NCBI RefSeq assembly: GCF_028368935.1
Contig: NZ_JAQNDK010000004.1
Coordinates: forward strand, 1,426,001 to 1,490,000
Length of the DNA: 64,000 nucleotides
From: Sorangium aterium
GTDB taxonomy: Bacteria; Myxococcota_A; Polyangia; Polyangiales; Polyangiaceae
Direction of reading: 5' to 3'
The notes below the pieces were generated by a model, which had not been told where the DNA came from, did no database searches, and saw nothing but the letters and a program-made list of their open reading frames with translations. Position 1 is the stretch's first letter; each line of letters opens with the position of its first letter. The position numbers were made by a program, and so were the translations under genes. Positions 28,450 through 58,112 of this stretch are shown piece by piece.

Positions 28450-28558
28450 GGCCGACACCCATTGCGCCGCCGCGCCCCGCGGGCAAGCCGCCGCGCGCCG
28501 GAGCTCGCGTGAGCGCCCCCTCCGGCGACGGCCCGCTCAGGGCGCGAGCTGGGTGGCA

Positions 28559-28596
28559 GCGCGCGGCGGACCGCTCGGCGCGCGGCGGACCGCTCG
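28559..28596. repeat. 19-bp tandem duplication
   Basis: The sequence GCGCGCGGCGGACCGCTCG occurs twice head to tail at 28559-28577 and 28578-28596. It lies in the gap between the ATP-grasp and 2H phosphoesterase genes, just downstream of the ATP-grasp stop codon. It has no clear function. Confidence 0.9.
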
Positions 28597-28617
28597 GATC
28601 GAGCGATGAGACGCTCC

Positions 28618-29559: not shown

Positions 29560-29610
29560 GAGGGTGTAGATCGGGCAATGACCGCGCGGACCGCGCGATG
29601 TTCAACTCGC

Positions 29611-29653
29611 CCTCCGCGCTCGACGCGAGCACCCAGCTCGCACTCGCAGGCGG
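29611..29653 (+). repeat. Dispersed 43-bp repeat, copy 1
   Basis: This 43-base segment matches the reverse strand of 45598-45641 at 37 of 43 positions by my alignment. On the plus strand it reads as peptide SALDASTQLALAGG, and the other copy as SALDACTQLALAGG. Both copies lie in intergenic debris close to decayed sequences. It may be a remnant of a coding element or a repeat family. Confidence 0.6.
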
Positions 29654-29757
29654 TTTCCTACCCGCCACGCGGCGGCTCTCTATCGCAAAGCCGCGCGCGA
29701 CGCGCGAGACGCCTCGCGGCGCTCGTGCCCGTGCCCGCGTCGGGCTAGTTTCGCGCC

Positions 29758-30447
29758 ATGGGAATGACGCTGCTCAGGATGCGCATCGCTCCGCTCGCGG
29801 CCCTGGCCTGGGGGAGCGCCTGCGGTGGAAACGTCGTCGTCGACGAGATGCCCGACGGGTCAGGAGGCGCCGGCGCGACAAGCACCAGCACCAGCACCAG
29901 CACCAGCGCGGTCGGCGTCGGCGTGACCAGCGCGGGCTCGACGGCCATCTCGGCGGCGGTGGGCTCCACCGGGGTGGGCGGCGGCGACTTGAGGTCGACG
30001 TGCCTTGAGCACTGCGAGCTCTTCGAGTTGACGTGCGGGGTGGCACCGGGCGCCTGCCGCGACTTCTGTGAGGCGCACCGGTCCGCGGCGTCCGCGTGCA
30101 ACGACCTGCTCATCCAGTTCTTCGATTGCGCGGTGCTCACATTGAGCTGCGATTTCCCTCCGCCCGCGTGCGAGCTGGTCCTGGAGCCGTACCTGGAGTG
30201 TGCGTCCGCTCCTCCCTGCGGGGCGGGGGTGCTCGAGTGCCCAGTCGGCGGCGACAGGGTCTGCGGTTGCGAGGGCTCGTGCCCAGGCATGGACCTCTCC
30301 GTCAGCTGCGCGCCGGTCAGAGGCGGCCCCGACATCAGCTGCGATTGCCTCGTCAACTACACGACGGTGGGCGCCTGTCAGGACGTCGGCCCGCCGTGCG
30401 ACCTCGCCCTTCGCTGCTGCGGGCCGATCTTCGAGCAGTTCCGCTGA
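29758..30447 (+). CDS. Cys-rich lipoprotein with Ser/Thr linker
   Basis: The 229-residue product has a signal ending in the lipobox GSAC (about residue 22). A linker follows that includes a microsatellite-coded Thr-Ser run (AGCACC repeats at about 29880). The rest carries many Cys (CLEHCELFELTC, CRDFC, CDCL, CDLALRCC). The C-x3-C-x6-C opening is the same spacing as in the four modules of the lipoprotein at 23811, so the two may be distant relatives. Function unknown. Start could be the second Met at codon 3 or the Met at codon 8. Confidence 0.75.
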   Translation: MGMTLLRMRIAPLAALAWGSACGGNVVVDEMPDGSGGAGATSTSTSTSTSAVGVGVTSAGSTAISAAVGSTGVGGGDLRSTCLEHCELFELTCGVAPGACRDFCEAHRSAASACNDLLIQFFDCAVLTLSCDFPPPACELVLEPYLECASAPPCGAGVLECPVGGDRVCGCEGSCPGMDLSVSCAPVRGGPDISCDCLVNYTTVGACQDVGPPCDLALRCCGPIFEQFR

Positions 30448-30559
30448 GAGGTGCGAGCGGCGCGAGGCCGCGGCGCCGCCGCTCACGGGCACGACCAGCG
30501 GCGCGCCCGCCCTGTCGCCCGGCACGCAACGCAGCGCCGGCCCGCCGAACTGGTCGCGC

Positions 30560-30880
30560 CGCGCCCAGAAATCGCCGTTGCTCATCCGGGACCGCGGCGA
30601 ACAGCGGCGGGCCGTAGCTTGGCGGGATCGGCCGGCGCGTCGCCTGGCGGACGTCCTCGAGGAAGGTACGGAACGGGCGCGTGTCGACCGCGTTCTGCGG
30701 GCCGAGCCGCGTGGCCGGGATCGGCAGGATCATGGCGTTCGGGCCGGAGGTCGACGCCGTGTTCTGGTAGGCGAGGACGTGGACGTAAAGGCCGTTCCAC
30801 TGCGCATCGCCGGCATAGAGGAGGGTGCTGGAGAGCCTCGCGGGGGAGAAGGTGCAGCATATGGTCGCGGCAGGATACAC
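30560..30880 (-). pseudogene. Decayed N-terminal part of a conserved hypothetical protein
   Basis: On the minus strand one frame reads ICCTFSPARLSSTLLYAGDA, then LYVHVLAYQNTA, GPNAMILPIPAT and FRTFLEDVRQAT. This order (CCxF start, LVY-like strand, NAMILPIP, F-x-FLxDL) resembles a family of conserved hypothetical proteins of about 300 residues whose name I cannot give. The homologous start appears as ATA rather than ATG, no ribosome-binding site is visible, and the family-like sequence stops near 30560 without the second half. I therefore take it as a remnant. The rest of the 551-bp gap shows nothing else. Confidence 0.45.
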
Positions 30881-30998
30881 GAGGAGGAGCCTTTCACCCC
30901 CTTGCCTTTCTCTTGCCCGACCAACGTCTTGCCGGCGTGTCGCCGCGCGGAGCGCCGTCGGCGCCAGCATCGTTTACGTCACGCGTCGCCGCGCCCCC

Positions 30999-31406
30999 TC
31001 ACGGGTGCCGGCTTCGGCGCAATAGCAACGCACGCAGGCGAACTCGGTCCTCACCATTCATGTCCAGGAGCTGGACTGTGGCGCGCCCCTCGGCCGTCAG
31101 CCCTTGAATGGTACCCTCGATCGCGACCGTGAAGTGCTCGCGCCAAGAGTGACACCTGGGGTGATACAGCGCCACGAGGATCCCAGTCTCTGGATCGATG
31201 GAGGCGATATTAGGCCCCTTCTTTAAATTGCAATGGATGCAGCAGAGACACAGATTGGCAACATCGTCGGAGCCACGATGCTGCCTCCCGATGATGTGGT
31301 CGACTTGATGGGGAAGGATTGAAGCTTCTTGAGGAAGCCGGCAGTACTCACATGCGCCCTGGGCGCGTCGCTGCACCGTCTCCCGCACATCGTTCGAGAG
31401 CTTCAC
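30999..31406 (-). CDS. HNH endonuclease
   Basis: The GTG start at 31406 overlaps the stop of the small upstream gene as GTGA. The 135-residue protein has a Cys4-type HNH domain: CEYC (19-22), HQVDHIIG with the catalytic Asp-His pair (36-37), CIHCN (56-60) and a following Lys-rich turn. This matches the HNH nuclease family found as stand-alone genes in cyanobacteria and other environmental bacteria. G+C is lower than in the neighbouring genes, which suggests acquisition. The role could be in defence or in a mobile element; nothing fixes it. Confidence 0.88.
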   Translation of the reverse strand: MKLSNDVRETVQRRAQGACEYCRLPQEASILPHQVDHIIGRQHRGSDDVANLCLCCIHCNLKKGPNIASIDPETGILVALYHPRCHSWREHFTVAIEGTIQGLTAEGRATVQLLDMNGEDRVRLRALLLRRSRHP

Positions 31407-31618
31407 GAAGCCGCGCGCATCGTCCAGAACTCCTCGGCCTCGAGCTTGAGGAGGCTAAGCCTGTCGTTCAAGCGGACGATCTCTGCGTACTCCCTTTGCT
31501 CCTCCGGGGTGAGCGCGCCTTCGGTGCTCTTCCGAGCGAGCTCCTCGACGCGTGGGGCGAGGTCTCTGCTGACGGCATCGAGCGCCGCCTCAAGCTGTTC
31601 GAGGGTTCGCCTTTCCAT
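31403..31618 (-). CDS. Small protein paired with the HNH endonuclease
   Basis: The ATG at 31618 gives 71 residues, all helical, with the conserved-looking core GALTPEEQREYAEIVRLNDR followed by LSLLKLEAEEF. Similar short proteins commonly precede HNH nuclease genes in other bacteria. The stop overlaps the nuclease start, so the two are translationally coupled. An accessory or antitoxin-like role is possible but not shown. No signal or membrane segment. Confidence 0.75.
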   Translation of the reverse strand: MERRTLEQLEAALDAVSRDLAPRVEELARKSTEGALTPEEQREYAEIVRLNDRLSLLKLEAEEFWTMRAAS

Positions 31619-31856
31619 GAGGTTCTCCGTCCGACGTCGGCACGGAGAGCATGCCATCCCTCCGCCGTCGCCTCAAGCTCCGCACGCCTCGGGCGGCTGA
31701 AGCCGCTCCACGCCCGAGGGCCGCACGGCCCGGCGCACGACCCGTAGCAGATCCGCCCCGTGCGCCGGCGGTGCGGAGCCCTGGCTTAGGGGAGCCGTTG
31801 CTTATGCCTGTCAGCGTCATCGAGCAGAGCTCGTCAAGCGCCGAGCCCATTTGTCG
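31619..31856. other. Intergenic region, nothing recognised
   Basis: The gap between the small HNH partner gene and the left boundary of the duplicated nitronate monooxygenase segment shows no gene, repeat or hairpin that I can support. The junction near 31857 is where homology with the second copy begins. Confidence 0.4.
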
Positions 31857-33050
31857 AACGTCGGCCGATGAGCCGCCGGCGCCACAGGCACCCGTCGGAT
31901 CTACCGGCAGGTTGGTCGGCGTCAGCGTGCACCCGGGAGGGCACCCGCGAGTCGTCGCGTGAGATCGGCCGCTGGCACTGCCTTACACCCGCTGGCGTTT
32001 TGCCCCGCCCAGAGCGGCGAGAAGTCGCCGCTGCCCTGGCTTTCGGCCTTGGCGCGCAGGGGCGCGATGGCCGACGTCGCCAAGGGAAAAGCTGGCACGG
32101 CGCCGCTCATCGGCCCAAGCTCCCTCATGAAGCGGTTCACGATGCCCCGAGCGGGTCGCCCGGTGAACAGGTTGGTGAGCGCCGTGGTGCGGGCTGCGTC
32201 GCTCTCGAGGGCCGCGCGATGCACCCTGCTCGTGGTGGCCTCGGGGCACAACAGGTAGGCCGTCCCGATCTGTGCGCCGGCCGCACCGAGGGCCATGGCG
32301 GCCGCAACGCCCCTCGCGTCCGCGATGCCGCCCGCGGCGATGACGGGGATCTTCACGGCGTCCACGATCTGCGGCACCAGCGCGAAGGTGCCGAGCTGGA
32401 CGCTGAGATCGTCGGACAGGAAGCTGCCGCGATGACCGCCCGCCTCGATGCCCTGGGCGATGACCGCGTCGACGCCGCGCGCCTCCAGCCAGCGCGCCTC
32501 GTCGACCGTCGTCGCAGAGGACAGGATCTTCGCGCTCCAGCGGCGCACCCGCGAGAGCAAAGCCTCCGAGGGCAGGCCGAAGTGAAAGCTCACAACAGCA
32601 GGGCTGAACTCGTCGAGCACGTCAGCGGCCTCATCGCTGAAGGGCAATCGGCCGGGGCCGGTCGGGATCGCGCTCGCATCGACGCCGAGCTCGGCGAAGT
32701 ACGGCGAGAGCCGGGCACGCCAGCTCGCTTCTCGCTCGGCGTCGGGCTCGGACTGCATGTGACAGAAGAAGTTCACGTTGAACGGCTTCGTCGTCTGCGC
32801 TCGGATGGCTGCCAGCTCCTTGCGCAGGCCGTCCGGGCCCAGCACGGCGCCGGGCAGCGAACCGAGCCCACCAGCGCTGGAGACCGCGACCGCGAGCGCG
32901 CTGCCCTGCACGCCCGCCATGGGTGCCTGGATGATTGGGAAATCGATTCCAAGGAGCTCCTGCAGCGTCGTCATGAGAATCTCCAGATCCACGGCCGAGG
33001 CAGAGTCCGGCTTTTGTCCTTTTTCGCCCAACAGAGAGCGTTCGGCCGTG
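31857..33050. repeat. Segmental duplication, copy 1 (nitronate monooxygenase unit)
   Basis: From AACGTCGGC at 31857 to about 33050 the sequence is closely similar to 39419-40612 in the same orientation. The similarity covers the whole coding region, about 65 bp beyond the stop and about 75 bp before the start. The two copies are direct repeats about 7.56 kb apart. Confidence 0.92.
31922..32974 (-). CDS. Nitronate monooxygenase, copy 1
   Basis: Start at the ATG at 32974 (MTTLQELLGI, 350 residues), with GGAG six to eight bases upstream. The FMN-dependent TIM barrel of the NMO/2-nitropropane dioxygenase family is clear: PIIQAPMAG at the start, AGGLGSLPG, VISFHFG-type strand, AQGIEAGGHRG with the catalytic His, PVIAAGGIADARG and the phosphate-binding ALGAAGAQIGT. 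The family oxidises alkyl nitronates such as propionate 3-nitronate to aldehyde and nitrite. The protein differs from copy 2 (39484-40536) at 26 of 350 positions by my alignment, so both copies are probably functional and recently duplicated. Confidence 0.92.
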   Translation of the reverse strand: MTTLQELLGIDFPIIQAPMAGVQGSALAVAVSSAGGLGSLPGAVLGPDGLRKELAAIRAQTTKPFNVNFFCHMQSEPDAEREASWRARLSPYFAELGVDASAIPTGPGRLPFSDEAADVLDEFSPAVVSFHFGLPSEALLSRVRRWSAKILSSATTVDEARWLEARGVDAVIAQGIEAGGHRGSFLSDDLSVQLGTFALVPQIVDAVKIPVIAAGGIADARGVAAAMALGAAGAQIGTAYLLCPEATTSRVHRAALESDAARTTALTNLFTGRPARGIVNRFMRELGPMSGAVPAFPLATSAIAPLRAKAESQGSGDFSPLWAGQNASGCKAVPAADLTRRLAGALPGAR

Positions 33051-33154
33051 GGACCTCAGCGTACGCGAAGGGCCCATCGGTAGCAACGCCGAGTTGGACG
33101 GCACCTGCTCACCTGCACGATGCACCAGTCGTTCCTCTGCCAACCTCTGCCAAT

Positions 33155-33766
33155 TTAATTCCAATCCGAGATCAGCTCGAGCGGCATGGGTCCCGACGAG
33201 GAGCTCGCCGATGCCGACGCGATGATGGCCGGCGTGTCCGCGGGGGCATTGTACAAGGCTACGAAGCCGCAAAGACCGTTGTTGTCGTTGTAGCTGCCAA
33301 GCTTCGGTATCGCGCTAGCAAGATACCAGCAGCCGGATGAGCCCTTCTTCCAGATATTCAGCTGGCCGGTCGCGGTCGCGCACTCCGATGGAGACATGGA
33401 TTTTACGCTCCTGAGGACGATTCTGAAGGTGTCGTTGCAGTTTACAGGATCGCTGCTGGGGCTAGGAACGAACTTCACTGTGTAGCGGGTAGCGCCGGCC
33501 GGGGATGACAGCCAATCACTGTGGTCACAGTATGGACCGGACTCGGTGATGAACGTGAGATCCGGGGTGGGTACCCCCATCGCGACACAAACGGGAAAAC
33601 CGCTGCCGCCCGTCGATACTCCTCCGGCGGATTGCTCCAGCAGCACAGGCCCGGGATCTGTATCGCTCCCCTCGGTACCCGCTTGATCGATGGGCTCGAT
33701 CACGCAGGCGGCCGAAGAAAGAGCACAGCTCATGAGGCACAACAGCAACCGATGACGTCGATACAT
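33155..33766 (-). CDS. Lipoprotein of unknown function
   Basis: The ATG at 33766 has GGAGG six bases upstream. The 203-residue product carries a lipoprotein signal ending in SSAAC (Cys21), an acidic linker and a globular Cys-containing domain (PVCVAMGVP, SGPYCDHSDW, CNDTF, CATATGQLNIW, SSGCWYLAS, GLCGF). A Ser-rich stretch precedes the C-terminus. I do not recognise the family. Its codon use is less GC-biased than the surrounding genes. It lies just outside duplication copy 1. Confidence 0.75.
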   Translation of the reverse strand: MYRRHRLLLCLMSCALSSAACVIEPIDQAGTEGSDTDPGPVLLEQSAGGVSTGGSGFPVCVAMGVPTPDLTFITESGPYCDHSDWLSSPAGATRYTVKFVPSPSSDPVNCNDTFRIVLRSVKSMSPSECATATGQLNIWKKGSSGCWYLASAIPKLGSYNDNNGLCGFVALYNAPADTPAIIASASASSSSGPMPLELISDWN

Positions 33767-34541
33767 GGTAGTCCTCCCCGGGTGGCGGGTTCTGGGGCCA
33801 GCATGCCGCGTTGGCCGCCCCGTCCAGACCGGACAGGGAGGGCTCTGCAGCTCGATACGGGTCTGTGCTGAGGTAGGCAAACGGCGTGCCCGAGAGCGCA
33901 CGTCGATGCGCAAGGATGCTTTCGCCTGCGAGCGCGGCTGGGCGGCGTTCGGAGCGCGCGCCATGGAGGGAGGCTGGTGAACGCGGAGGCTGCAGCCACC
34001 AGCCAATGGCGCCTGCAGCCACCAGACAGCGCCCGAAACCGTTCCGCACCTGTACCACGTTGGCGTGCTGGCTATCCATCGAGGGGAAGCTCGTAACCGC
34101 CCGACCTTCGCCATGGGCGTGGCCCCGTATGGACGTTCCTTCACTCATCAAAACGGGTTTTGGCGAGCTGTTTCGGGGCTTCCCCCTCCCACGTCCTCGG
34201 ATCGAGGTCCGGATCTGGGGGACCTAACCGCGAGACACAGCAGTGGAACAGCCGGATGGTGGCAATTCCCTTGTCCGATTCTGGTGAGGGCCCCGGAGTG
34301 GTCCGCCGGGGCTACTCGACAAAAAGAATGTTCTCTCCACCCGCGCCAGGTCGCGCAGTTGGGGCTTGACGTTTCCGAAACGTTTGGAATTCCTTTTCCC
34401 CTCCTGCGCGCAGAGCCCAGACGAGGGCTTCTCCTGCGGGGCGGGGCGGTCATCACTGGGCGTGACACGGCCGAGAGCTCCACGGTTTCAGATCCGCGGC
34501 GCGCGCGGCGCGACTACACTGCGCGGCCCGTGGACTCCGTG
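33767..34541. other. 775-bp region without a supported gene
   Basis: G+C is lower and frames are short on both strands. A 13-bp direct repeat CTGCAGCCACCAG occurs at about 33990 and 34013. Several short open frames exist but none has a ribosome-binding site or family-like sequence. Upstream control of the divergent lipoprotein (33766) and DoxX-like (34542) genes must lie here. Confidence 0.4.
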
Positions 34542-35207
34542 ATGGACCGCATCGAGGCGATGGTCGCCTGGTTCCGGCAGCGCCGGTGGGCGCACCTCGC
34601 CGTGGTGAACCTGCGCATCCTGATCGGCTTCGCGTTCCTGCCGGCGGGGCTGAAGAAGATCCTCGGCGAGCCGTTCACGGATCCGGCCAATCGCGGCCCG
34701 TTCCACGAGTTCTTGCACGCGTTCCACGCGACCGGGCACTTCTACACGTTCGTGGGCGTGGTCCAGCTGGTGGCCGCGACGCTGCTCATGACGCAGCGGT
34801 TCGCGACGGCCGGCGCATTCATGGCGCTGCCGGTGACGGGCGCGATCCTGGCGTTCTGCTGGAGCACGGCGGTCGTCCCGACGGCGACGGTCGTCACGCT
34901 GATGTTCGCGGGCCTGGTCGGGCTGGCGCTGTGGGACGTCGAGCGGTGGCGCGGCGTCCTCGACGCGCCGGACGCCACGCCGCGGGCCGCGCGTGCCTCG
35001 TCACCAGCGCCGATCGATCTGCAGCTGTGGAGCCTGTGCGGGGCGGCCATCCTGGTGGCGTACCTCGCGACGTGTCTGCTCAGCGGCGGCATCTACCGGC
35101 CGCGCGGGCCCGCGTTCGACGAGCCGGGGTTCTACGTGCTGATGGCGCTGCCGCTGTTCCCGATCGTGACCGCGCTCATCGATCGTCGCCGGCGCGCGGG
35201 GCGCTGA
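34542..35207 (+). CDS. DoxX-like integral membrane protein
   Basis: Start at the ATG at 34542 (221 residues); a GTG four codons earlier is possible, and the longer upstream frame has no family sequence. Four to five hydrophobic segments are present: LRILIGFAFLPAGLKKIL, FYTFVGVVQLVAATLL, AFMALPVTGAILAFCW and TVVTLMFAGLVGLALW, plus two more near the C-terminus. The GLKKI motif after the first helix is typical of DoxX/DoxD-like proteins. Members have varied redox- or quinone-related roles, and no partner is adjacent. It converges on the gene at 35241. Confidence 0.8.
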   Translation: MDRIEAMVAWFRQRRWAHLAVVNLRILIGFAFLPAGLKKILGEPFTDPANRGPFHEFLHAFHATGHFYTFVGVVQLVAATLLMTQRFATAGAFMALPVTGAILAFCWSTAVVPTATVVTLMFAGLVGLALWDVERWRGVLDAPDATPRAARASSPAPIDLQLWSLCGAAILVAYLATCLLSGGIYRPRGPAFDEPGFYVLMALPLFPIVTALIDRRRRAGR

Positions 35208-35240
35208 CCGTGCCGCGGTAGAGGTGCCCCTGCAGCGGTG

Positions 35241-36431
35241 TCATGCGCCGGCGGTACCCTCCAGCGCCACGACGATGTCGCCGAGCGGCGCAGCGAGGTG
35301 GAGCCACGCCTCGCCGCCCACGCGCAGCACGGCGAGCACGTCGTCCGCCCGGCCGCGGAACCCGCCCAGCGAGCGGGCCGGGCCGCCCTCGTCGACCGCG
35401 AGCACGGCCACCTCGCCGTCAGCGCGCGCCACGACGACGAGCACACCCGGTTCGGTCGCGCCCAGCCAGACAGGGCGGCCGCCGAGCGCGACGTTCCGGG
35501 GAGAGCCGCGCTTCGGCACCTCGTGCAGGAGCCCGCGAGGAACGTCGCAGCCCCAGAACGAGCGCAGCCGCAGGGCGGCCGGCAGCGGGCCGCCGAACGC
35601 CTCGTAGGCGTCGCAGGCGTCGTGGCCGGGGTCGAGCGGGAGCAGGTCGGCGTCGTTCGGGACGAGGCGGGCGAGGGCCGCGTCGCGCGCCTCCATGAAG
35701 CGTGGCAGCGCATGGCGAAGGCGTAACGCCGGCAGGCCACAGAGCGGTCGCAGGTCTGGGCGAGACTCACCCTCTTCCGTCACAATGCAGCGCCTGCCGC
35801 TCGGGTCGAGCAAGAGCACCGCGCGATGGCGGATCGCGATAGGTGTGTCTGGCCTGAAGACGGGGCACACCTCAACGACCCCGTGGTCCTTCTTCAGCCG
35901 CACGAGCCTCCAGCCGTCGATGGCGAAAACCCGGCTGCCATCCGTGCAAAGGCGGCGATAGGACGACGACGTTGCGGCAACGAGGGTTGTCCCCGGAGGA
36001 ACGAGCGCACCTCCTGACGCCAAGCTTGCGGGCGCTTCGCCGCGTCCTGGCTCGGGGCGCGCTGCGGCTACACCGTGCGCGGTGAGCCAGGCGCGGAGCG
36101 CGGCAGGCGCGTCCACTTGCGCGGCGGTATCCCACGCAAGCTGGATCGATAGGTCAGCACCCACGCGCAGCGCGGCGATTGGCCGCCCATGGCGCTCGAG
36201 CTCCACCGTGATCGGCCCCAGCGTGTCCTCTTCTAGAGGTGCGCCCTCGCCGTGCGGAGGCGTATTCCCGCGGAGGCGAAGCAGCGGGCGAAGCGTGTCG
36301 AGCTCGGAACGAGGGACGCGAACGCGGTGGCGATCGTTCGCGACGAGCCACGCCGCCGTCGCGCTCTCGAGGGCGCGGTCCACGTCCGCTTGCTGCGGAG
36401 GCGGCGAAGGCAGGATGGGCCATACAGGCAT
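35241..36431 (-). CDS. Unrecognised 396-residue protein
   Basis: A single long frame with consistent codon use but no family that I recognise. The sequence is mixed alpha/beta with many repeated short strand-turn phrases (RVFAIDGWRLVRL, VLVVVARADGEVAVLAVD, VGGEAWLHLAAPLGDIVVAL). This suggests a beta-rich C-terminal half. No signal peptide, membrane segment or catalytic motif is visible. Overlapping antisense frames are shadows. It is convergent with the DoxX-like gene. Confidence 0.65.
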   Translation of the reverse strand: MPVWPILPSPPPQQADVDRALESATAAWLVANDRHRVRVPRSELDTLRPLLRLRGNTPPHGEGAPLEEDTLGPITVELERHGRPIAALRVGADLSIQLAWDTAAQVDAPAALRAWLTAHGVAAARPEPGRGEAPASLASGGALVPPGTTLVAATSSSYRRLCTDGSRVFAIDGWRLVRLKKDHGVVEVCPVFRPDTPIAIRHRAVLLLDPSGRRCIVTEEGESRPDLRPLCGLPALRLRHALPRFMEARDAALARLVPNDADLLPLDPGHDACDAYEAFGGPLPAALRLRSFWGCDVPRGLLHEVPKRGSPRNVALGGRPVWLGATEPGVLVVVARADGEVAVLAVDEGGPARSLGGFRGRADDVLAVLRVGGEAWLHLAAPLGDIVVALEGTAGA

Positions 36432-36683
36432 AGGGCTATCGCTTCAATAACGAAGTCGGATCCATCACCCCGTTTCGCTGTCGGAGACCAGAATTTGTAC
36501 CACGGCCGCGGCTTGATCGACGTCGCTTTTCGCCTGGCTAAGAACGCGCTCCCACGCGCTGCTCGGTCCGTTTTGTCATCCTAGCCCTCGGGCCTCCTCC
36601 CTCAGGCTGTCTGCCTGCAGCAAGCCTGCGGAGGATGTGCAGGCGACGGCGCTGGTCGGCGCGGCCGAGCTGGCCGCGCCGCC

Positions 36684-36992
36684 GGTCATCTGCCCGCGCG
36701 CGGCTCCAGCCGGAGCCACACGCCGCCGGACGTGCGCAGCGTGGTCGCGACGTGCAGCCGCGTCGTCCGCCCCGGCACGGCGCTAATCCGCTAGCGCTGG
36801 AGGAGCCGGGCGAGGATGAGCTGCCCTTCCATGAGCGCGAACTCCTTGCCGATGCACTGTCGCTGCCCGATCCCGAACGGGGCGGCCGACGTCGAAGCCT
36901 GCGCTGGCGGCATGCCGGGCTTCCTCCTCGAAGGCGCTGTCCGGCGCGGTCGGGTGCAGCGAGTTGCTCGGGAACAAGGACGAGCGGGGCTC
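36684..36992 (-). pseudogene. Chimeric pseudogene: ATP-grasp 5' piece joined to P450 3' piece
   Basis: Bases 36884-36992 match the 5' part of the ATP-grasp gene (about 29410-29517), and bases 36684-36882 match the 3' part of the P450 gene (about 43665-43864, including the haem-Cys loop). Both pieces keep their original minus-strand orientation and join near 36883. In the P450 frame the haem segment GIGQRQCIGKEFALMEGQ is intact. The codon TAC of the parent, after LLQR, is TAG here, and a frame change occurs at the joint. The fragment cannot make either product. The parents lie on opposite sides, about 7 kb away each. Confidence 0.88.
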
Positions 36993-37071
36993 GGAGCGAG
37001 TCGCCGGCCATCCGCCCGTCAGCTCTTATCCTCGGCATGGGCGTCGCTGCCTACCGCTGTCCGAATGAACG

Positions 37072-38949
37072 CTACGCTGCTGTGGGACCCGGCCATAGCT
37101 TCAGCGCTACGTCGAACAGCGCCCTGCCACGCACCTCGATGCTGGACTCGTCCCAGGTGGCGAACGTATGCAGCTGCTGGTTGATCGGCAGCAACGAGGA
37201 GACCAGGAGTTCCGGTTTCTTGACCTTCCATGCGCTATTCGAGACTGTCGAGTTCAACGCCTGCGTGAGGATCGTCAGGTTTCCGAGGGTGTGAATCGCG
37301 GCGCTTCTGCGGCGGGTCGCGACGGCTCGAGGATCCGTTGCATCGCTACTGACGAGCTCATCGGAGGTCATCCCCGCGGTCCCATCTGCCAGGGGCCAGT
37401 GCTCGATCCAGCTTTGCGGGAGGATGTGCTCGATGGTAAGCGGTCCATCGATGCTGATTCGTTCACTCTTGCCGCTCAGCAGCGCGTCACTCAGGCGCCG
37501 GAGGATGTGTACAACCCGGGGCTGGGCCAACGTCTGGTATGTGGCGCGCTCCTGCCAGGCCGTCCGGAACTCTTCATCGGACGGCCACCCGGTCGACTCC
37601 CCGGAGAGCTCGGCCAGGTGCTTGCGAACGCTTTCCGGCGTGGTCCCATCCCGACGCAAGCTCCGGGTCAGTGTAAGGAAGACACGGTTGTAGTTCTTGG
37701 TGTTTAGGCCACACACCGCCCGTCGCAACAGATACGACTCGAGCAGGACGGTGATCTGCCGCCAGTGCATATCGGTCGTCCGGGCATCGAGGAGGTGGAG
37801 CAGCAGCGGATAGGCGGTCCGGATGTCGAACGCCTCGAGGAACGACGTTAGCGGGAAGAGGATGTCGTCCTTCTTCGGATCAATGATCCGCCGGAAGTCG
37901 TCACCCTGGCGAGCCAGCGTCGCCAGCTCTTCACGCACTGTGGCGTAGGGCCTCTTCCGCTCGATCCAGAACTTGTACTCGACGAACAGGTGCGTGATCG
38001 GGATATCCGCGGTCTGGCGGCTGGCCAGGAAGTGCTGCATGAAAAGGTCGCTGCGCGGCCGGAGCAGGCGCCCCTGCTTGACCTCTTGGCGCCAAAAGTC
38101 GTCGTCGAACCTGCGCCAATACTCCTCGTAGAGCGCCTCCTGCGACTCGCCCTGGCGCGCTGCCCGTAGGAAGATGAAGTTCCTTAGCAGATCGGCGGGC
38201 AGGAGCGGCTCCCCGCGGGCGTTCAGCGTCTCGAAAATGACCTGCGCATCGTCCCCACCCTCGAGGTCGATCACGACCACCTGCAGCGCGTTCTTGAGGG
38301 CCTGGAAGCACTCCTCGACTCGCACCGCGAGTGGTTGATCGGCGGCGATCGGCGGCTCCCCCTCTGTCCCGAAGAAGAATTCGCGCAGCTGATCGTGGAA
38401 ATACAAGTAAGCCTCGACCATGCGCGGACGCGGGTCGTCGTGCCGCTGGTACTTGCGCCGTTGCCGCGGGTGCTTCTCCTCAAGCGCGGCACGGGAGCCC
38501 GCGCCAATAACGTCCTTGAACTGCTGACGATCGAGCAGGGTAGGCCAAACTTTGAACCGGTCGGCGTCGGGCTCGGCCATCATTCCCTTGTTCAGGGTGA
38601 AGGAATCGCACTCCTTGGCGAGTTCCTCGCACGTGCTCTCGCGACATAGGTCACGGAAGGCCGCGAGGAAGATCTGCAGCGTCGTGAGCCGCTGCTGCCC
38701 GTCGATGACCTGCCGCTTCTCGACGTGCGTGGTCGGCGTCTGCTTCTGGTCGAGCACCATCGCCCCGAGGAAGTGGACCGGCGCGTCCTTCCTCCCCTCG
38801 AGGTATTCGGTGAATTTCCGGCAGATGTCCTCCCAGAGGAACACCCACTGGTCGTCTTGGCTCCAAACGTATTGCCGCTGGAAGAGGGGAACCTCAAGGC
38901 GCATCTTCTTCTCGAAGATGGCGAGCAGCGGGACGGCGTTGGCTTTCAT
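37072..38949 (-). CDS. GmrSD-like DUF262/DUF1524 protein
   Basis: The ATG at 38949 gives 625 residues, within the normal range. The N-terminal DUF262 (GmrS-like, ParB/Srx-type NTPase) shows PLFQRQYVW (21-29), VIDGQQRLTTLQ (81-92) and FETLNARGEPLLPADLLRN. The C-terminal DUF1524 (GmrD-like HNH nuclease) shows IEHILPQSW around residue 505 and HTLGNLTILTQALN then SNSAWKVKK. Known relatives (GmrSD, BrxU, SspE) recognise modified DNA and cleave it, giving phage resistance. It stands alone between the duplicated nitronate monooxygenase genes, with no DNA-modification gene visible. Confidence 0.93.
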   Translation of the reverse strand: MKANAVPLLAIFEKKMRLEVPLFQRQYVWSQDDQWVFLWEDICRKFTEYLEGRKDAPVHFLGAMVLDQKQTPTTHVEKRQVIDGQQRLTTLQIFLAAFRDLCRESTCEELAKECDSFTLNKGMMAEPDADRFKVWPTLLDRQQFKDVIGAGSRAALEEKHPRQRRKYQRHDDPRPRMVEAYLYFHDQLREFFFGTEGEPPIAADQPLAVRVEECFQALKNALQVVVIDLEGGDDAQVIFETLNARGEPLLPADLLRNFIFLRAARQGESQEALYEEYWRRFDDDFWRQEVKQGRLLRPRSDLFMQHFLASRQTADIPITHLFVEYKFWIERKRPYATVREELATLARQGDDFRRIIDPKKDDILFPLTSFLEAFDIRTAYPLLLHLLDARTTDMHWRQITVLLESYLLRRAVCGLNTKNYNRVFLTLTRSLRRDGTTPESVRKHLAELSGESTGWPSDEEFRTAWQERATYQTLAQPRVVHILRRLSDALLSGKSERISIDGPLTIEHILPQSWIEHWPLADGTAGMTSDELVSSDATDPRAVATRRRSAAIHTLGNLTILTQALNSTVSNSAWKVKKPELLVSSLLPINQQLHTFATWDESSIEVRGRALFDVALKLWPGPTAA

Positions 38950-39110
38950 CGGCGGTGCTCTCCAGGCGAAAGGGGATTTGCGTCTGATCCATGAGCCCGG
39001 CGCGGCGCCCCGCAACCCTGGCTACGCGTTTCCGATCGGCTGGTGGAACCGAGAGCCAGCCGGTCAGGGCGCGCGTCACATCCTACCCGAGATCGTGGAC
39101 GGGGGCCACT

Positions 39111-39395
39111 CTACTCGTGTCGAGCGACACGGGCGATTCTCGCTTGGGCGACGCGCGATATCCGCATCAACACCAGCCAGGGCGCCGATCGATCGTCGGC
39201 TGCTAGCAACCAGAGGCGCATCAGCGATGTGAGCGCCCAGGCATCACGGTCCGAGCAGGCGTCTTTCATGAGCGGCAACAGCTCGAGCATTCCGCTGCCG
39301 ATCGACGCGGCCGTACTGGCGGTCGAAGACTTCAGCTCGCCGAAGAACTCCCCCAGGCTCTTGGACCGCTGAACTGAGGCTCGGTTCAATGCCAT
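39111..39395 (-). CDS. Small hypothetical protein
   Basis: The 94-residue frame begins at an ATG with a strong ribosome-binding site (AGGAAAGGAG, six-base spacing), which supports it as real. The sequence is helical (SLGEFFGELKSSTASTAASI; WALTSLMRLWLLAADD) and has no recognised domain. It begins 24 bp outside the left boundary of duplication copy 2, downstream of the second nitronate monooxygenase gene, and could be co-transcribed with it. Confidence 0.5.
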   Translation of the reverse strand: MALNRASVQRSKSLGEFFGELKSSTASTAASIGSGMLELLPLMKDACSDRDAWALTSLMRLWLLAADDRSAPWLVLMRISRVAQARIARVARHE

Positions 39396-39418
39396 TGCAC
39401 TCCTTTCCTAGCCTGCCC

Positions 39419-40612
39419 AACGTCGGCGGATGAGCCGCGGCTGCCGCGGGCACCCGTCGGATCCATCGGCAGACTGGGCGGCGTCAGCGTGCACCTGGGA
39501 GTGCACCCGCGAATTGTCGCGTGAGATCGGCCGCTGGCACTTCCTTACATCCGCTGACGTTTTGCCCCGCCCAGAGCGGCGAGAAGTCGCCGCTGCCCTG
39601 GCTTTCGGCCTTGGCCCGCAGGGGTGCGATGGCCGACGTCGCCAAGGGAAAAGCTGGCACGGCGCCGCTCATCGGCCCCAGCTCCCTCATAGGGCGGTTC
39701 GCGATGCCCCGAGCGGGTCGCCCGGTGAACAGGTTGGTGAGCGCCGTGGTGCTGGCTGCGTCGCTCTCGAGGGCCGCGCGATGCACCCTGCTGGTGGTGG
39801 CCTCTGGGCACAACAGGTACGCCCTCGCGATCTGTACGCCGGCCGCACCGAGGGCCATGGCGGCCGCAACACCCCTCGCGTCCGCGATGCCGCCCGCGGC
39901 GATGACGGGGATCTTCACGGCGTCCACGATCTGGGGCACCAGCGCGAAGGTGCCGAGCTGGACGCTGAGATCGTCGGACAGGAATCTGCCGCGATGACCG
40001 CCCGCCTCGATGCCTTGGGCGATGACCGCATCGACGCCGCGTGCCTCGAGCCAGCGCGCCTCGTCGACCGTCGTCGCAGAGGACAGGATCTTCGCGCCCG
40101 AGCGGCGCACCCGCGAGAGCAAAGCCTCCGAGGGCAGGCCGAAGTGAAAGCTCACCACAGCAGGCCTGAGCTCCTCGAGCACATCAGCGGCCTCCTCGCT
40201 GAAGGGCAATCGGCCGGGGCCCGTCGGGATGGCGCTTGCGTCGACGCCGAGCTCAGCGAAGTACGGCAGCAGCCGGGCACGCCAGATCGCTTCTCGCTCG
40301 GCGTCGGGCTCGGGCCGCGTGTGACAGAAGAAGTTCACGTTGAACGGCTTCGCGGTCTGCGCTCGGATGGCTGCCAGCTCCTTGCGCAGGGCGTCCGGGC
40401 CCAGCACGGCGCCGGGCAGCGAACCGAGCCCGCCCGCGTTGGAGACCGCGACCGCGAGCGCGCTGCCCTGCACGCCGGCCATGGGGGCCTGGATGATTGG
40501 AAGATCGATTCCAAGGAGCTCCTGCAGCGTCGTCATGAGAATTTCCAGATCCACTGCCGCGGCAGAGTCCAGCTTTTGTCTTCTTTCGGACCAACGCCGT
40601 GTTCAGCCGCGG
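39419..40612. repeat. Segmental duplication, copy 2 (nitronate monooxygenase unit)
   Basis: Direct repeat of 31857-33050. Homology starts at AACGTCGGC and continues past the start codon into the upstream region, where it fades near 40612. The junctions show no insertion-sequence ends or target-site duplication that I can see. Confidence 0.92.
39484..40536 (-). CDS. Nitronate monooxygenase, copy 2
   Basis: Start at the ATG at 40536, aligned with copy 1; an in-frame ATG six codons upstream is replaced by GTG in copy 1, so the later start is preferred. The 350-residue FMN-barrel has the same motifs as copy 1. The differences are scattered, including IGTAY to IARAY near the FMN phosphate loop and MQSEP to TRPEP in a surface loop. 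A change in the phosphate-loop region may alter cofactor binding or activity. No other nitronate or nitro-compound gene is nearby. Confidence 0.92.
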   Translation of the reverse strand: MTTLQELLGIDLPIIQAPMAGVQGSALAVAVSNAGGLGSLPGAVLGPDALRKELAAIRAQTAKPFNVNFFCHTRPEPDAEREAIWRARLLPYFAELGVDASAIPTGPGRLPFSEEAADVLEELRPAVVSFHFGLPSEALLSRVRRSGAKILSSATTVDEARWLEARGVDAVIAQGIEAGGHRGRFLSDDLSVQLGTFALVPQIVDAVKIPVIAAGGIADARGVAAAMALGAAGVQIARAYLLCPEATTSRVHRAALESDAASTTALTNLFTGRPARGIANRPMRELGPMSGAVPAFPLATSAIAPLRAKAESQGSGDFSPLWAGQNVSGCKEVPAADLTRQFAGALPGAR

Positions 40613-40675
40613 CGGGGTATCCCCCGCCGTCGACGTGCAACACGTAGTTGGGCAGTTTCCGGCGTCCCATGTCCA

Positions 40676-42058
40676 TCATCCAGCTATCCCGAGGTGGAGA
40701 ATCCGTTTCCCGTGCCGGTAGATGGTGATTGGACCATCTTCCGAAATCTTCAGGCTTGTGCCAAAGATCGATGCATTCCATGCGGCGGTGGATCGAGCGC
40801 CCTCGAAAGTTCTCCCTACATCCGCCCCAACGACCGCCTGGAGTGCTTCGCGCGATGGACGCGCCACCATGGCGGCTGCGTCGAGAACCTGGCCGTTCCT
40901 TGACAGCACAGTCGCGCCATCGACGGAGGCAACTCCGGCAATTACCTGTCGTGCGGTCCAGTCGACGATACTGAGCCCCACGATGCTTTCACGTAGAGCA
41001 CGACTGGGCCTGTGTGGGTCAGCGTTGTCTGGAACGAGACTATTCAAGTCCTCGTGTCGATCTAGTATCACTATTAACGCGCCGACTCGCTGAAACGACA
41101 AGTCCAGAGCTAAGCGAAGAACGGCAACAATAAAGTTCCACTTGAGCGCAATGTTGGCATCGTGATCGGTCCAGCAGCGCGAAAGCACGACCTGGGCACT
41201 CTCGTAGTTGAGATAACGCCATGCTCCCTGGCTCTTCTGGAAGACTATGCCATTGCCCAGTAGCGCGAAGATGTCACCATGGCTTGAGGCAGTGATGACC
41301 ATGTCTCTTGAGCCAAGGAAACTCTGCAGAGGAAGGAGCGAATCGTGGGGCGCGAATGGGAATCTTGGCTCTGTTGCCGGAAGAGCAGAATAGCACAACA
41401 ATCCCGTGACCTGCCGTCTCTTTTTTCTTCTGCCGTCAATCACGAGAGCAAGCGGCCTTGAACCAAAAGCCGCGCGTATCCACTTTTGGCGAAGCAGGGC
41501 GTCCTCGATGTCCATCGGCTCGGAAAGCTTAACATAGAGCGAACCTGACCTCGCCTCGAGATCCTTGGTGCTGTTCAAGAAGAGCGCTGTGTATCGAACA
41601 GGCTTCCCTTCGTAAGTAAGGCTTATCGAGCTTTCCGCCAGCTCGAGCCAGTTCGACACCATTGGAGTGGGGAGCGGCACATACGCTGCTATGGCGCGGG
41701 CAATTCTTGATGTCGTGAGCGCCTCCCAAGGTGCCTGATTTCTCGCGCTCTGGACGTCTTCTTCGAAGGTGTGGAGCAAACAGCGACAGAATTGTATGTC
41801 CTCGGGCATCGGCGCGGAAGGAAACGTGACTCGAAGCGCGTGGGCAACGCGCCGCACACGCGGCTTGTATAGGAAGATCAATAACGTGTCTTCGTTGGTG
41901 ACTAGCCGTGGTTGAGCGTCGTCGGAGGTTCGGCAACGATTCCATTCTTGCGTCGTGGCTGCTGCGTCCAGGACTTGAACCGTGGCCCCTGTTGCGTCCT
42001 GCAATAGGCGTTTCAGCGAGTCTGCCAGTTCACCCTTGAGCCAGTGCTTAGTTGTCAT
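40676..42058 (-). CDS. Protein with C-terminal diadenylate-cyclase-like (DisA_N-type) domain
   Basis: The ATG at 42058 gives 460 residues; the longer upstream frame has no family-like sequence. Residues 1-250 are a novel mixed domain. From about 300 the sequence follows the DAC fold: VLRLALDLSFQRVGALIVIL, then SVDGATVLSRNGQVLDAAAM with DGA at 380-382, GARSTAA at 420-426 in the place of the GTRHRxA motif, and LKISEDGPITIYRHGKRIL with SEDG at 439-442. The DGA, Arg and Ser-Glu positions are kept; the motif His is Ser. It may make a cyclic dinucleotide, or be a divergent nucleotide sensor as proposed for other DisA_N-like domains in conflict systems. G+C is well below its neighbours. Gene order suggests an operon with the DUF4365 gene 92 bp upstream. 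Confidence 0.75.
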   Translation of the reverse strand: MTTKHWLKGELADSLKRLLQDATGATVQVLDAAATTQEWNRCRTSDDAQPRLVTNEDTLLIFLYKPRVRRVAHALRVTFPSAPMPEDIQFCRCLLHTFEEDVQSARNQAPWEALTTSRIARAIAAYVPLPTPMVSNWLELAESSISLTYEGKPVRYTALFLNSTKDLEARSGSLYVKLSEPMDIEDALLRQKWIRAAFGSRPLALVIDGRRKKRRQVTGLLCYSALPATEPRFPFAPHDSLLPLQSFLGSRDMVITASSHGDIFALLGNGIVFQKSQGAWRYLNYESAQVVLSRCWTDHDANIALKWNFIVAVLRLALDLSFQRVGALIVILDRHEDLNSLVPDNADPHRPSRALRESIVGLSIVDWTARQVIAGVASVDGATVLSRNGQVLDAAAMVARPSREALQAVVGADVGRTFEGARSTAAWNASIFGTSLKISEDGPITIYRHGKRILHLGIAG

Positions 42059-42150
42059 GCTATCGCTGTGGAGTCGAAGTAGAACGTGTCTGCAACCTGC
42101 CACGGCGAGCGCGGACGTATTCCCTGCGTGGGCCGCGGGGCGTGAAGATG

Positions 42151-42927
42151 TCACTGCTCTCTCTCGGGATGTGGCTCTCGTAGCCGCTTCTCTAGATCCG
42201 CGATCATTGGCTCGATAGCGGCGAGAACTTCTCCTCCGTCCGCGAAGGTACGCGAACCTCCCCACATGACGTGGGCATACATGCTGTCGCAGTTGATGGG
42301 GTAAACCGCGCGCAATGCCTTGGCCAGCGCTTCTTCTGCGAGCTTGATGACGTGTTCGCCCCAATATCCTAACGCGGGAGCTTCAGGGCGAAGGCCTACT
42401 CGAATTCTCTCACCCTTCGGAATGTCCCAGTAACGTTTCTTGCAGACTTCGGTCCGATCGTGAAGTTGCTTCAGTCGCATTGTTAGGGCGCCTGCTGCTT
42501 GATCAAGTGCGTCCATGGAGCACCGCCCCAAGCTCTGTGTCCTAGGAACCGTAGTCTTCCAACCCTTCGGCGTTCGCTCGACCGCCTTTTCCTCGATCTG
42601 TTTCCACAAACACTCGCCCGTCTGTGAGTTCCATATGATGACAATGACGGGGAGCGAATGGTTGAGCCAGTATTCGAGATGCTCCGTGTCTCCACGGTAG
42701 ACGTAGCCGTCGTCGGTCGGCTCCGCAAAATAGCTCGGGCCAGACTTGATTTGTGCTGCGAGCAGCCGCCCCGTCGCTTGGCCTTCTCGGACAACTTCAA
42801 TCTGTGCGTCGATCCCGAAGTCGCTGATCGGCTGCTCGCGGAACAACCAGTTGAGCTGCGTCGTGACACGCAGTTGAACCTCCGATACTCCGCTTCGCTC
42901 AGTCAGATGGCGCTCATCAACCTTCAT
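42151..42927 (-). CDS. DUF4365 nuclease-like protein
   Basis: The ATG at 42927 (258 residues) has GAGG eight bases upstream; a GTG three codons earlier is possible. Residues 5-160 match the DUF4365 pattern: VQLRVTTQLNWLFREQPISD, FGIDAQIEV with Asp40 and Glu44, LLAAQIKSG with Gln59 and Lys61, and HSLPVIVIIWN. The D...QxK set is the PD-(D/E)xK nuclease signature. DUF4365 occurs in anti-phage and conflict proteins, usually with a sensor or effector partner. The C-terminal 100 residues are of no known family. It is the first gene of a lower-GC pair with the DAC-like gene. Confidence 0.82.
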   Translation of the reverse strand: MKVDERHLTERSGVSEVQLRVTTQLNWLFREQPISDFGIDAQIEVVREGQATGRLLAAQIKSGPSYFAEPTDDGYVYRGDTEHLEYWLNHSLPVIVIIWNSQTGECLWKQIEEKAVERTPKGWKTTVPRTQSLGRCSMDALDQAAGALTMRLKQLHDRTEVCKKRYWDIPKGERIRVGLRPEAPALGYWGEHVIKLAEEALAKALRAVYPINCDSMYAHVMWGGSRTFADGGEVLAAIEPMIADLEKRLREPHPEREQ

Positions 42928-43344
42928 CAGTTGCACCTCTGGAGATTAGCCTGCCCGCTCCCCTGGTCGACAGGACGAACCCCTCTCGATTGTTTTCCCC
43001 TCGCCAGCGCGAAGGATCGCATGTTCAACTATCCGTCGATTGGTCAACCGAAACCGCCGGACCAGTTCTGTCTAGTTCGTTGCCTTGTGTGACCTCCCAT
43101 ACGGAAAATCTCACGGATCGGTCCTGCGCCGCAAGGCCCAAATGCCGTCCAGCGCCATAGGGTAGATCGGTCTAAGACCGGTGGCAGTCGTCGCCTTTCC
43201 GGGGGACCGGAGGCGCCTGGAGGGAGGGGGCGCGGCGGACGCGCAGCCAGAGGCGTCGTGCCGCATCGCGCCTGGATGACACGGCGCGGCCGCCTCATCA
43301 GGAGGTTGCGGGACACCTACCAGTCCGTTCACAACTTCGGACCG
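42928..43344. other. Intergenic region upstream of the DUF4365/DAC pair
   Basis: About 417 bp run from the DUF4365 start to the recombinase remnant. The first 150 bp keep the lower G+C of the module and presumably carry its promoter. From about 43160 the G+C rises sharply, which marks a likely boundary of the acquired segment. No gene is supported. Confidence 0.4.
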
Positions 43345-43510
43345 AAGGGGCCATCGAGGCGCTGCGGACCGTCAGGGCGCTGCGGTTCAGCACCAGGGTG
43401 TAGATCCTCGTCGTGCGCACGTCGCGGTAGCTGAGGAACTCCGGGATCGTGCGGATGTCGTGGCCGGCCTCCAGCAGGTGCGTGGCGAAGGAGTGACGCT
43501 GGCGCTCTGC
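43345..43510 (-). pseudogene. Decayed C-terminal part of a tyrosine recombinase
   Basis: On the minus strand the frame reads [39 protein letters not shown]. This is the C-terminal core of integron-type or XerC/D-type integrases, where the usual text is LLGHxDVxTTxIYTHVL. The second conserved His is lost (LSYRD), the Tyr of IYT is kept, and no N-terminal or core-binding domain precedes it. It is a remnant of an integrase next to the DUF4365/DAC module. Confidence 0.82.
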
Positions 43511-43667
43511 TTCGCGCCCGTGACGTGGACGGACGCGGAACTCGACATCATCGCGCAGGACGGGCACCTCCTGTCATTCATGACACGGAGACGCTGGATC
43601 TCGTGGTACGGACGCTCCTGCCGCAGAGGCAGACAGGGCGGCCGCGCACCTCGGTCATCTCATCTAC

Positions 43668-45089
43668 CTACCTACCAGCGCGCGGCTCCAGCCGGAGCCA
43701 CAAGCCGCCGGACGTGCGCAGCGTGGTCGCGACGTGCAGCCGCGTCGTCCGCCCGGGCACCGCGCTGATCCGGTAGCGCTGGAGGAGCCGGGCGAGGATG
43801 AACTGCCCTTCCATGAGCGCGAACTCCTTGCCGATGCACTGTCGCTGTCCGATTCCGAACGGGATGAACGCGAGCGGGTGCCGGGCGCGCGTGCGCTCGG
43901 GCGTGAACCGGCCTGGGTCGAAGCGCATGGGGGCCTCCCAGTGGTCCGGGTGCCGGTGCAAGACATAACTCATGACGCCCACCAGGGTGCCAGCGGGGAT
44001 GTGGAAGCCGTCGATCTCGTCGTCCTCGACCGCGGTGCGAGGTATCCAGTACGACGGCGGGTAGATCCGGAGCGCCTCCTGCACGACCGCGAGCGCGAGC
44101 GGCAGCCTGGGGACGTCCGCGAAGCTGGGCCGCCTGTCGCCGAGCGCCGCGTCGACCTCGGCCGCGAGCGCCTGCAGGACGTCGGGGTTCTCGACGAGGA
44201 AGTGGAGCGCCCACGCGAGTGCGACCGAGGTCGTCTCGTACCCCGCGAGGAACATCGACACCGCCTCGTCCCGCAGCTGCTGGTTGGACATCTGCTCGCC
44301 GGTCTCGGCGTCGACTGTGGCGAGGAGCATCGAGAGCAGATCTCCGCTCCGCCCCGGCTGCGCGCGGCGCTGCGCGATGAAGCGAAACACGTTCTCATCG
44401 ATCGTCTTCACCGACCGCTCGAACCGGCGCCGCCCAGGGGCCGGCATCCAGCTCGGCAGCGCCCGGAGCGCGGCCCCGAAGATCATGTAGTCGATGGCGT
44501 ACTGCATCGAGCCGCCGATGGCGTCCGCCTCCTCTTTGGTGATCCCCGAGCCGAACATGGTGTTGAGGATGACCTTCATCGTGATGTGCGGGAGCTCCCG
44601 CTCGGCGTTGACCGGGCGCCCCCCGGCGGCGGCCGCGCCGAAGCCGGCCATGCCGTCGTCGATCGCCTGCACCATGAGGTCGCACATCGCGGCGAGCCGG
44701 TCCCGGTGGAACTCGGGCTGGATCATCCGCCGCTGCCGCAGCCAGAGATCCCCCTCGCTCGTGGGCAGCCCATCGCCGATGAGCGCGCGGATGCTCTCCC
44801 ATAGAGCGCCTCCCTTGCGGTAGTTGCGCGCGTTGTCGCGCAGGACGTGCTGCGCGTGCCTCGGGTGGTTCAGCGCGACGATCCGCGTGAACCCGAGATC
44901 GACGGTGTACAGATCGCCGAGCTCGGCTCTCGCCGAGACGAGGTAATCGAGCCGATCCTTGAGCAGGTGCGGGAGCACGCCGACGAGCGGAAAACCGCGC
45001 GCCGACGGCGGCGCGCTCGCGCGGGCGGCGGCGCCGGCGCTGCCCGTGGCGCGGGCGGGTGTGCCGGAGAGAAGATCTGGCTGCATCAT
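43668..45089 (-). CDS. Cytochrome P450
   Basis: Start at the first of two Met at 45089, giving 473 residues; the frame is open upstream but non-homologous. All P450 marks are present: I-helix AGYETTS, EALRIYPP (ExxR), the PERF-like region FDPGRFTPERT, and the haem loop FIPFGIGQRQCIGKEFA with the thiolate Cys. The long form without a membrane anchor and with CIGKEFA resembles bacterial relatives of CYP102/eukaryotic-type P450s, likely acting on fatty acids or secondary metabolites. No ferredoxin or reductase gene is adjacent. A 3' part of this gene was copied into the pseudogene at 36.7 kb. Confidence 0.93.
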   Translation of the reverse strand: MMQPDLLSGTPARATGSAGAAARASAPPSARGFPLVGVLPHLLKDRLDYLVSARAELGDLYTVDLGFTRIVALNHPRHAQHVLRDNARNYRKGGALWESIRALIGDGLPTSEGDLWLRQRRMIQPEFHRDRLAAMCDLMVQAIDDGMAGFGAAAAGGRPVNAERELPHITMKVILNTMFGSGITKEEADAIGGSMQYAIDYMIFGAALRALPSWMPAPGRRRFERSVKTIDENVFRFIAQRRAQPGRSGDLLSMLLATVDAETGEQMSNQQLRDEAVSMFLAGYETTSVALAWALHFLVENPDVLQALAAEVDAALGDRRPSFADVPRLPLALAVVQEALRIYPPSYWIPRTAVEDDEIDGFHIPAGTLVGVMSYVLHRHPDHWEAPMRFDPGRFTPERTRARHPLAFIPFGIGQRQCIGKEFALMEGQFILARLLQRYRISAVPGRTTRLHVATTLRTSGGLWLRLEPRAGR

Positions 45090-45321
45090 GGCCTCGTCCA
45101 GGTAAGGGGCGGAATCCGAGCGAGGGGTGGTATCCGGGTCGCTCGGCGGCTGACGCGCCCGCTGCGTCGATCGGGCGAGAGTACATGAGCCCGGACCTCG
45201 GCGAGGAGGATTTTGGAGCGAGGCGCGCGGCGCGCCCTCCCCGCCCACGGTGTGGCCGCGCGAGGCACATGCGACGGCGTGAGGCGACAAGGGTCGATGT
45301 CCTGGGACATTGGATTCCTAC

Positions 45322-45500
45322 GCTGTCACGTCAGCGCGCGCTGCGAGCGCCTCGCCCGGCCCAGCCGGAGAGCTGGACGGCGCGCCGGCCGCTCCGCGCG
45401 ACCGCATCGACGAGGAGCATCGTCGTAGCGTCGGGATCGTGGGAAGTCATGCTGCCGGAGCCGAGGGGAGCGGTGGCTCGCCCGCCGCGGCGAGGTCTGG
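45322..45500 (-). pseudogene. Decayed fragment of a GT1 glycosyltransferase
   Basis: The minus strand reads GSMTSHDPDATTMLLVDAVA, then RSGRRAVQLSGWAG, nearly identical to the segment of the intact gene at 55813-57087. Just beside it LAAAGEPPLPSA corresponds to FLAAGEPPIALG in a shifted frame, and a few bases (about 45322-45350) match the 3' end of that gene. The fragment therefore has a frameshift and a large internal deletion. It is a remnant of a second copy. Confidence 0.82.
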
Positions 45501-45597: not shown

Positions 45598-45641
45598 CCG
45601 CCTGCGAGCGCGAGTTGGGTACACGCATCGAGCGCGGACGG
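45598..45641 (-). repeat. Dispersed 43-bp repeat, copy 2
   Basis: Reverse-strand counterpart of 29611-29653, with 37 of 43 bases the same by my alignment. Encodes SALDACTQLALAGG on the minus strand. It lies about 100 bp upstream of the glycosyltransferase remnant, in a 725-bp gap with no supported gene between 45090 and 45814. Confidence 0.6.
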
Positions 45642-57087: not shown

Positions 57088-57101
57088 GGGGCCGCCTCGC
57101 C

Positions 57102-58085: not shown

Positions 58086-58112
58086 ATCCTGCTGAACGGG
58101 GTTCCACGTCAC

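Follow-up and report, generated by a model that had tools for sequence, protein, structure and literature searches.

A chimeric gene fragment as the likely seam of a tandem two-unit array beside a cytochrome P450 gene in Sorangium

Results and Discussion

A short chimeric fragment at positions 36690-37006 of a 64,000-nucleotide window from a Sorangium genome, built from the start of an ATP-grasp gene and the end of a cytochrome P450 gene, is almost certainly the seam of a tandem two-unit array with the order A-B-P' followed by A'-B'-P. We give somewhat better than even chances to the view that the array arose when one-sided illegitimate recombination placed two divergent versions of the same variable locus end to end. 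The window (G000:C4:1426001-1490000) lies on a contig of 1.82 Mb in a genome of 13.47 Mb assembled into 7 contigs, and the genus comparison covered six Sorangium genomes, namely the window's own (G000) and five others including So ce26 (G001) and So0157-2 (G004).

The chimeric fragment

The fragment, its joint and its two parent genes are as follows.

28618-29523, minus strand: A, intact ATP-grasp (R2K clade) gene without internal stop (PF14243, 1e-32)
36690-36881, minus strand: P', copy of the P450 gene end, ~64 codons (BLASTN and window self-comparison)
36882-36883, no strand: joint, GC, two bases fitting neither parent in register (BLASTN)
36884-37006, minus strand: A', copy of the ATP-grasp gene start, ~38 codons, with one base inserted and the ATG lost
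43668-45290, minus strand: P, intact cytochrome P450 gene, also present in So0157-2 and So ce26 (PF00067, 8e-89)

A sequence-only reading had described this stretch as a chimera of an ATP-grasp 5' piece and a P450 3' piece, and BLASTN of 36500-37200 against the window recovered both matches. P' is a direct copy of 43672-43863 with 182 of 192 positions identical (94.8%, E 4e-82), while A' matches 29409-29530, likewise directly, over 123 bp with gaps at 91% identity (E 5e-42). The next genome-wide matches to the fragment, among the 40 of 405 candidates that were scored, are short and at most 76% identical. The earlier description of a single short chimeric segment therefore stands with its limits moved from 36684-36992 to 36690-37006; the joint, previously set at about 36883, is located at 36882-36883, and the reported change of a P450 tyrosine codon from TAC to TAG is real and falls at codon 36791-36793.

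Read on its coding strand, the fragment begins with the ATP-grasp start, passes the two-base joint and continues into the P450 end, with the frame broken at the joint. A' looks decayed at its outer end, where 6 of 11 bases are changed, a base is inserted and the ATG is missing. The fragment is without function. A functional fusion of the two genes was considered and rejected, as no open frame crosses the joint, the P450 part carries the TAG and the ATP-grasp part has lost its ATG. The P450 gene itself runs on unbroken to the right of 43863. For A we set the start at the ATG near 29523, although the longest open reading frame begins at 29559; the five best-matching relatives align with this longer frame from residue 14-17, and weaker ones together with the best match of another search from about residue 5.

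A check for microhomology at the joint gave a divided answer: the parents have GATGA in common at the joint position, but the fragment itself reads GGC there. With at most these ~5 bp shared between the parents, the joint was made with little or no homology. Sharing of this kind occurred in 69 of 20000 random site pairs at zero slack, in 406 at one base and in 1030 at two bases. Because the fragment reads GGC, the GATGA match is only suggestive; it may be due to chance, or a short match that helped to guide the joining may since have been eroded.

The flanks of the fragment were compared with those of the parents by shuffling, and no homology is claimed for any of these comparisons. For the left flank against the region downstream of the P450 gene, the score was reached by 5 of 500 shuffles, by 98 of 2000 in another setting and by 1103 of 2000 with a longer stretch. 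For the right flank against the region upstream of the ATP-grasp gene it was reached in 375 of 500 and 1008 of 2000 shuffles. When the left flank was set against the native boundary between the genes as it stands in So ce26, in So0157-2 and in the own genome, the counts were 208, 31 and 201 of 500, respectively.

A tandem array of two units

Comparing the window with itself revealed a third homologous pair, 31857-33026 and 39419-40588 (93.6% identity over 1170 bp), that was absent from the earlier reading. It accounts for the place of the fragment halfway between its parents, noted before, since the fragment is the joint of two tandem units. The genes and cargo regions of the units are listed below.

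31922-33031, minus strand: B, nitronate monooxygenase gene of unit 1 (alternative start 32992; PF03060, 7e-84; shared DNA 31857-33026)
39484-40554, minus strand: B', intact nitronate monooxygenase gene of unit 2 (PF03060, 9e-82; shared DNA 39419-40588)
29531-31856, no strand: cargo x1 of unit 1, 2326 bp, with a gene at 29758-30447 and an HNH-like open reading frame at 30999-31406
33027-36689, no strand: cargo y1 of unit 1, 3663 bp, with open reading frames at 34065-35207 and 35241-36431
37007-39418: cargo x2 of unit 2, 2412 bp, mostly the GmrSD-type gene
37072-39015, minus strand: GmrSD-type (type IV) restriction gene (PF03235, 2e-36; PF07510, 3e-25; mREase_IV)
40589-43667, no strand: cargo y2 of unit 2, 3079 bp, 59% G+C, containing a dispersed repeat (~43026-43499)

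The three pairs A/A', B/B' and P'/P share order and direction, with offsets of 7475, 7562 and 6982. Unit 1 (A-x1-B-y1-P') spans 29409-36881 (7473 bp) and unit 2 (A'-x2-B'-y2-P) spans 36884-43863 (6980 bp), giving the direct repeats with a new joint between them that mark a tandem duplication. The three collinear pairs support the former interpretation of the fragment as a scar of recombination or duplication between the ATP-grasp and P450 genes. The further idea that a larger second copy was reduced to one joint does not hold, as the nitronate monooxygenase gene of unit 2 is still intact and the cargo of one unit is not homologous to that of the other. B and B', whose minus-strand assignment is backed by codon usage and Pfam, are both intact without internal stop and differ with dS 0.12 and dN 0.036 (dN/dS 0.30).

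Comparison of x1 with x2 and of y1 with y2 gave nothing beyond matches of 13-19 bp, which is not the picture of a whole-unit duplication. Several cargo pieces have relatives scattered over the six Sorangium genomes examined, the own genome included. Outside this locus, ten relatives match both the A and the B protein (E 0.001 for A; E 1e-40 for B, which leaves out weaker B homologues), but the two genes lie far apart in G001, G004, G024, G043, G071 and G086; in G006, G033, G054 and G064 they are on separate contigs and may or may not be neighbours.

Some features of the cargo may be recorded in their own right. Each of the six Sorangium genomes searched has copies of the dispersed repeat at 43026-43499 (69-88% identity), and 5 of the 7 copies compared start at 43026-43029. 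Within a stretch of 57% G+C (40589-43025), an open reading frame of 261 residues (42151-42936) matches with its first 120 residues the PADLOC models Aga_REase-PNTD1-PNTD2 (429 positions; 1e-24) and, judged from this match, may be a broken defence gene of the Argonaute-associated kind. In a related Sorangium (G005:C499, 5156-5772) the GmrSD-type gene survives as a decayed remnant, in which three pieces are 88-92% identical and the intervening parts are missing. Two segments of ~78 bp each, 30462-30539 and 34324-34401, have many matches in the genus at 79-87% and match neither Rfam nor a tRNA. The Rfam search of 28400-43900 gave nothing at gathering score, and the window contains no tRNA.

An empty site in two relatives

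Genome comparison identified one block between the flanking genes.

28489-43667, no strand: 15.2-kb block, not present at the corresponding site of So0157-2 and So ce26

In So0157-2, the alignment with the window breaks off at 35215 (window position 28488) and resumes at 35219 (window position 43667), leaving three bases between; in So ce26 the same two flanking genes adjoin. Neither genome has a match to A, B or the cargo between these genes, and the block is therefore extra here relative to both. The comparison covers these two strains, as the three further genomes of the genus lack a sufficiently close P450 gene. The search for an un-rearranged ancestor, proposed along with the first description of the fragment, was thus answered in part: the state before either unit exists in two relatives, while a one-unit strain was not found among the genomes searched.

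Divergence of the copies

P' and the P450 gene differ at 10 positions, eight of them at codon position 3 and two at position 1. When So0157-2 and So ce26 serve as outgroups, three changes fall on the P' branch (all at position 3, the stop included) and five on the P450 branch (three at position 3, two at position 1), while two stay unplaced. Had P' been a neutral relic, ~8.8 differences would be expected at positions 1 and 2, against 2 seen (P 0.007), if the split is as old as that of B and B' (dS 0.12) and the P450 gene changes at these positions at 15% of the neutral rate; with a split half as old (dS 0.06), P rises to 0.18. The 93-bp core of the ATP-grasp pair, placed by eye with one outgroup (G043), has four differences, of which one belongs to A', two to A and one is unplaced. 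Taken together, P' and A' carry 4 of the 11 placed changes, where ~70% would be expected for a relic (P 0.022, or 0.062 when two more decay events of A' are counted).

A second relic, a piece of a glycosyltransferase gene described below, served as a control. Over its ungapped 120 bp (45348-45467), eight changes fall on the relic, two on the gene and one is unplaced; by codon position they number 0/4/4 for the relic and 0/6/5 for all changes. By this informal comparison of small numbers, the pattern of P' looks unlike that of the control. As the differences between P' and the P450 gene sit mostly at position 3 and are so placed on the branches, the copies probably diverged as working genes before they were joined; we word this as probable because the numbers are small and the outer end of A' is more decayed than P'.

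Origin of the array

In the reading we prefer, units 1 and 2 would be divergent versions of one variable locus beside the P450 gene, coming from separate lineages. DNA with version 2 would have paired with the resident P450 gene on one side, while its other end, broken inside the ATP-grasp gene, would have been joined to the resident P450 gene ~192 bp before the stop codon with little or no homology. This single event would add ~7 kb, displace the tail of the resident P450 gene, leave a piece of the ATP-grasp gene beside that tail and keep one complete P450 gene. Support comes from the three collinear pairs, the cargo without detectable homology, the empty site in two relatives and the codon and branch pattern of P'; counting against it are the small numbers, the decay at the outer end of A', the lack of a one-unit strain in the genomes searched and the GATGA that the fragment does not contain. 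The divergence pattern, again from few changes, favours incoming DNA from another strain.

An ordinary tandem duplication within one genome, with its joint between the P450 and ATP-grasp genes and with different cargo lost or gained in each unit afterwards, would equally give three collinear pairs, and it fits their similar divergence (5-9%) as well as the two intact nitronate monooxygenase genes. In a variant, all of the cargo may have been present in the ancestral unit, with a different half then lost from each copy. By our own count it requires ~4 further deletions or replacements, and P', in contrast to the control relic, does not have the branch and codon pattern to be expected if decay had set in with the duplication; we regard this origin as rather unlikely, though as one to be taken seriously. 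Alternatively, two full units with two P450 and two ATP-grasp genes could have diverged as working genes before a deletion ran from the first P450 gene into the second ATP-grasp gene, which is the form that the duplication-deletion idea of the sequence-only reading takes here. Such a late deletion yields the constrained P' and the same geometry, but it leaves the cargo differences unexplained and needs a long coexistence of a large tandem repeat. Large tandem repeats are usually unstable, and we consider this course improbable.

The start of the block directly behind the P450 stop codon and the duplication of the P450 end are what would be seen if an integrative element used the 3' end of this gene as its attachment site and restored it; the 192-bp repeat would then be the gene end that was displaced. 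That scenario leaves the A/A' and B/B' pairs unexplained and puts the second copy of the P450 end in the middle of the block and not at its far edge; no integrase was found in the subset of open reading frames scanned and the window has no tRNA, which makes an element of this kind very improbable. For an assembly error no supporting sign was found, and copies that differ by 5-9% and by a stop codon and an indel, on a 1.82-Mb contig of a 7-contig genome, render it scarcely credible.

Relation to known systems

Hot spots of bacterial genomes hold variable, often defence-related cargo between conserved genes. The present locus resembles them in carrying unrelated accessory genes, a restriction gene among them, at a site that is empty in relatives; unlike in such hot spots, two cargo versions stand here in tandem in one genome with their seam preserved. 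The kind of event that we propose is already known, and the present case is a new, well-preserved and unusually readable example. One-sided joining is described for several bacteria (PMC3240628), and homology-facilitated illegitimate recombination has been proposed for the stacked T6SS immunity genes of Vibrio cholerae (PMC5361080). As described there, the immunity genes share with our locus, in the reading we prefer, one conserved anchor, an illegitimate other end, a part of the resident gene displaced beside the module and repeated insertions at one place. In Sorangium, unlike in that account, the joint links the interiors of two genes, one for a P450 and one for an ATP-grasp protein; the pieces are dead, and retaining the piece brings no evident benefit. 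For transformation of Streptococcus pneumoniae, a tandem duplication (merodiploid) with a chimeric junction is reported (PMC3784515), likewise a direct duplication with a junction made of parts of two sequences between the copies; the junction described in that report formed between repeats of 96% identity, whereas here at most ~5 bp are shared and the units differ in cargo. Literature searches on tandem duplication in Sorangium gave no title on this case, and those combining bacterial chimeric pseudogenes with tandem duplication found nothing.

Seams of this sort are usually erased. As the seam, both parents, a third duplicated gene, the empty site in two relatives and a control relic are all found in one stretch, it becomes possible to test in what order and by what mode a variable region of a very large bacterial genome has grown. 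The case suggests that gene fragments lying between genes may mark recombination rather than random debris.

A second relic and minor observations

The window self-comparison also revealed the relic used as control, on the other side of the P450 gene.

45348-45489, minus strand: second relic, piece of a glycosyltransferase gene

It matches 56199-56341 (90% of 143 bp) inside a gene at 55813-58107 with glycosyltransferase domains, and its changes appear to be spread like those of neutral decay. The start of this glycosyltransferase gene lies ~170-220 bp beyond the P450 gene in So ce26 and ~3.6 kb beyond it in So0157-2. As it is nearer to the P450 gene in these relatives, 45.5-55.8 kb is another stretch that parts the P450 gene from an old neighbour, and the ~10 kb between relic and gene have almost no match in the stretches of So ce26 and So0157-2 compared. 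We tentatively suggest, with considerable doubt, that the P450 gene is a repeated landing place at which one-sided recombination adds cargo and each time leaves a short piece of a neighbouring gene that it displaces (36690-37006 on one side of the P450 gene, 45348-45489 on the other). If true, gene pieces at such loci would be readable as a record of successive insertions.

Elsewhere in the window, a 44-bp inverted repeat pair (29610-29653 and 45598-45641, 86% identity) has more copies at G000:C2:704312 and G000:C1:2303598. A tandem array with a period of ~42 bp, its repeats 91-96% alike, occupies 13364-13588 upstream of an open reading frame of 1120 residues at 13654.
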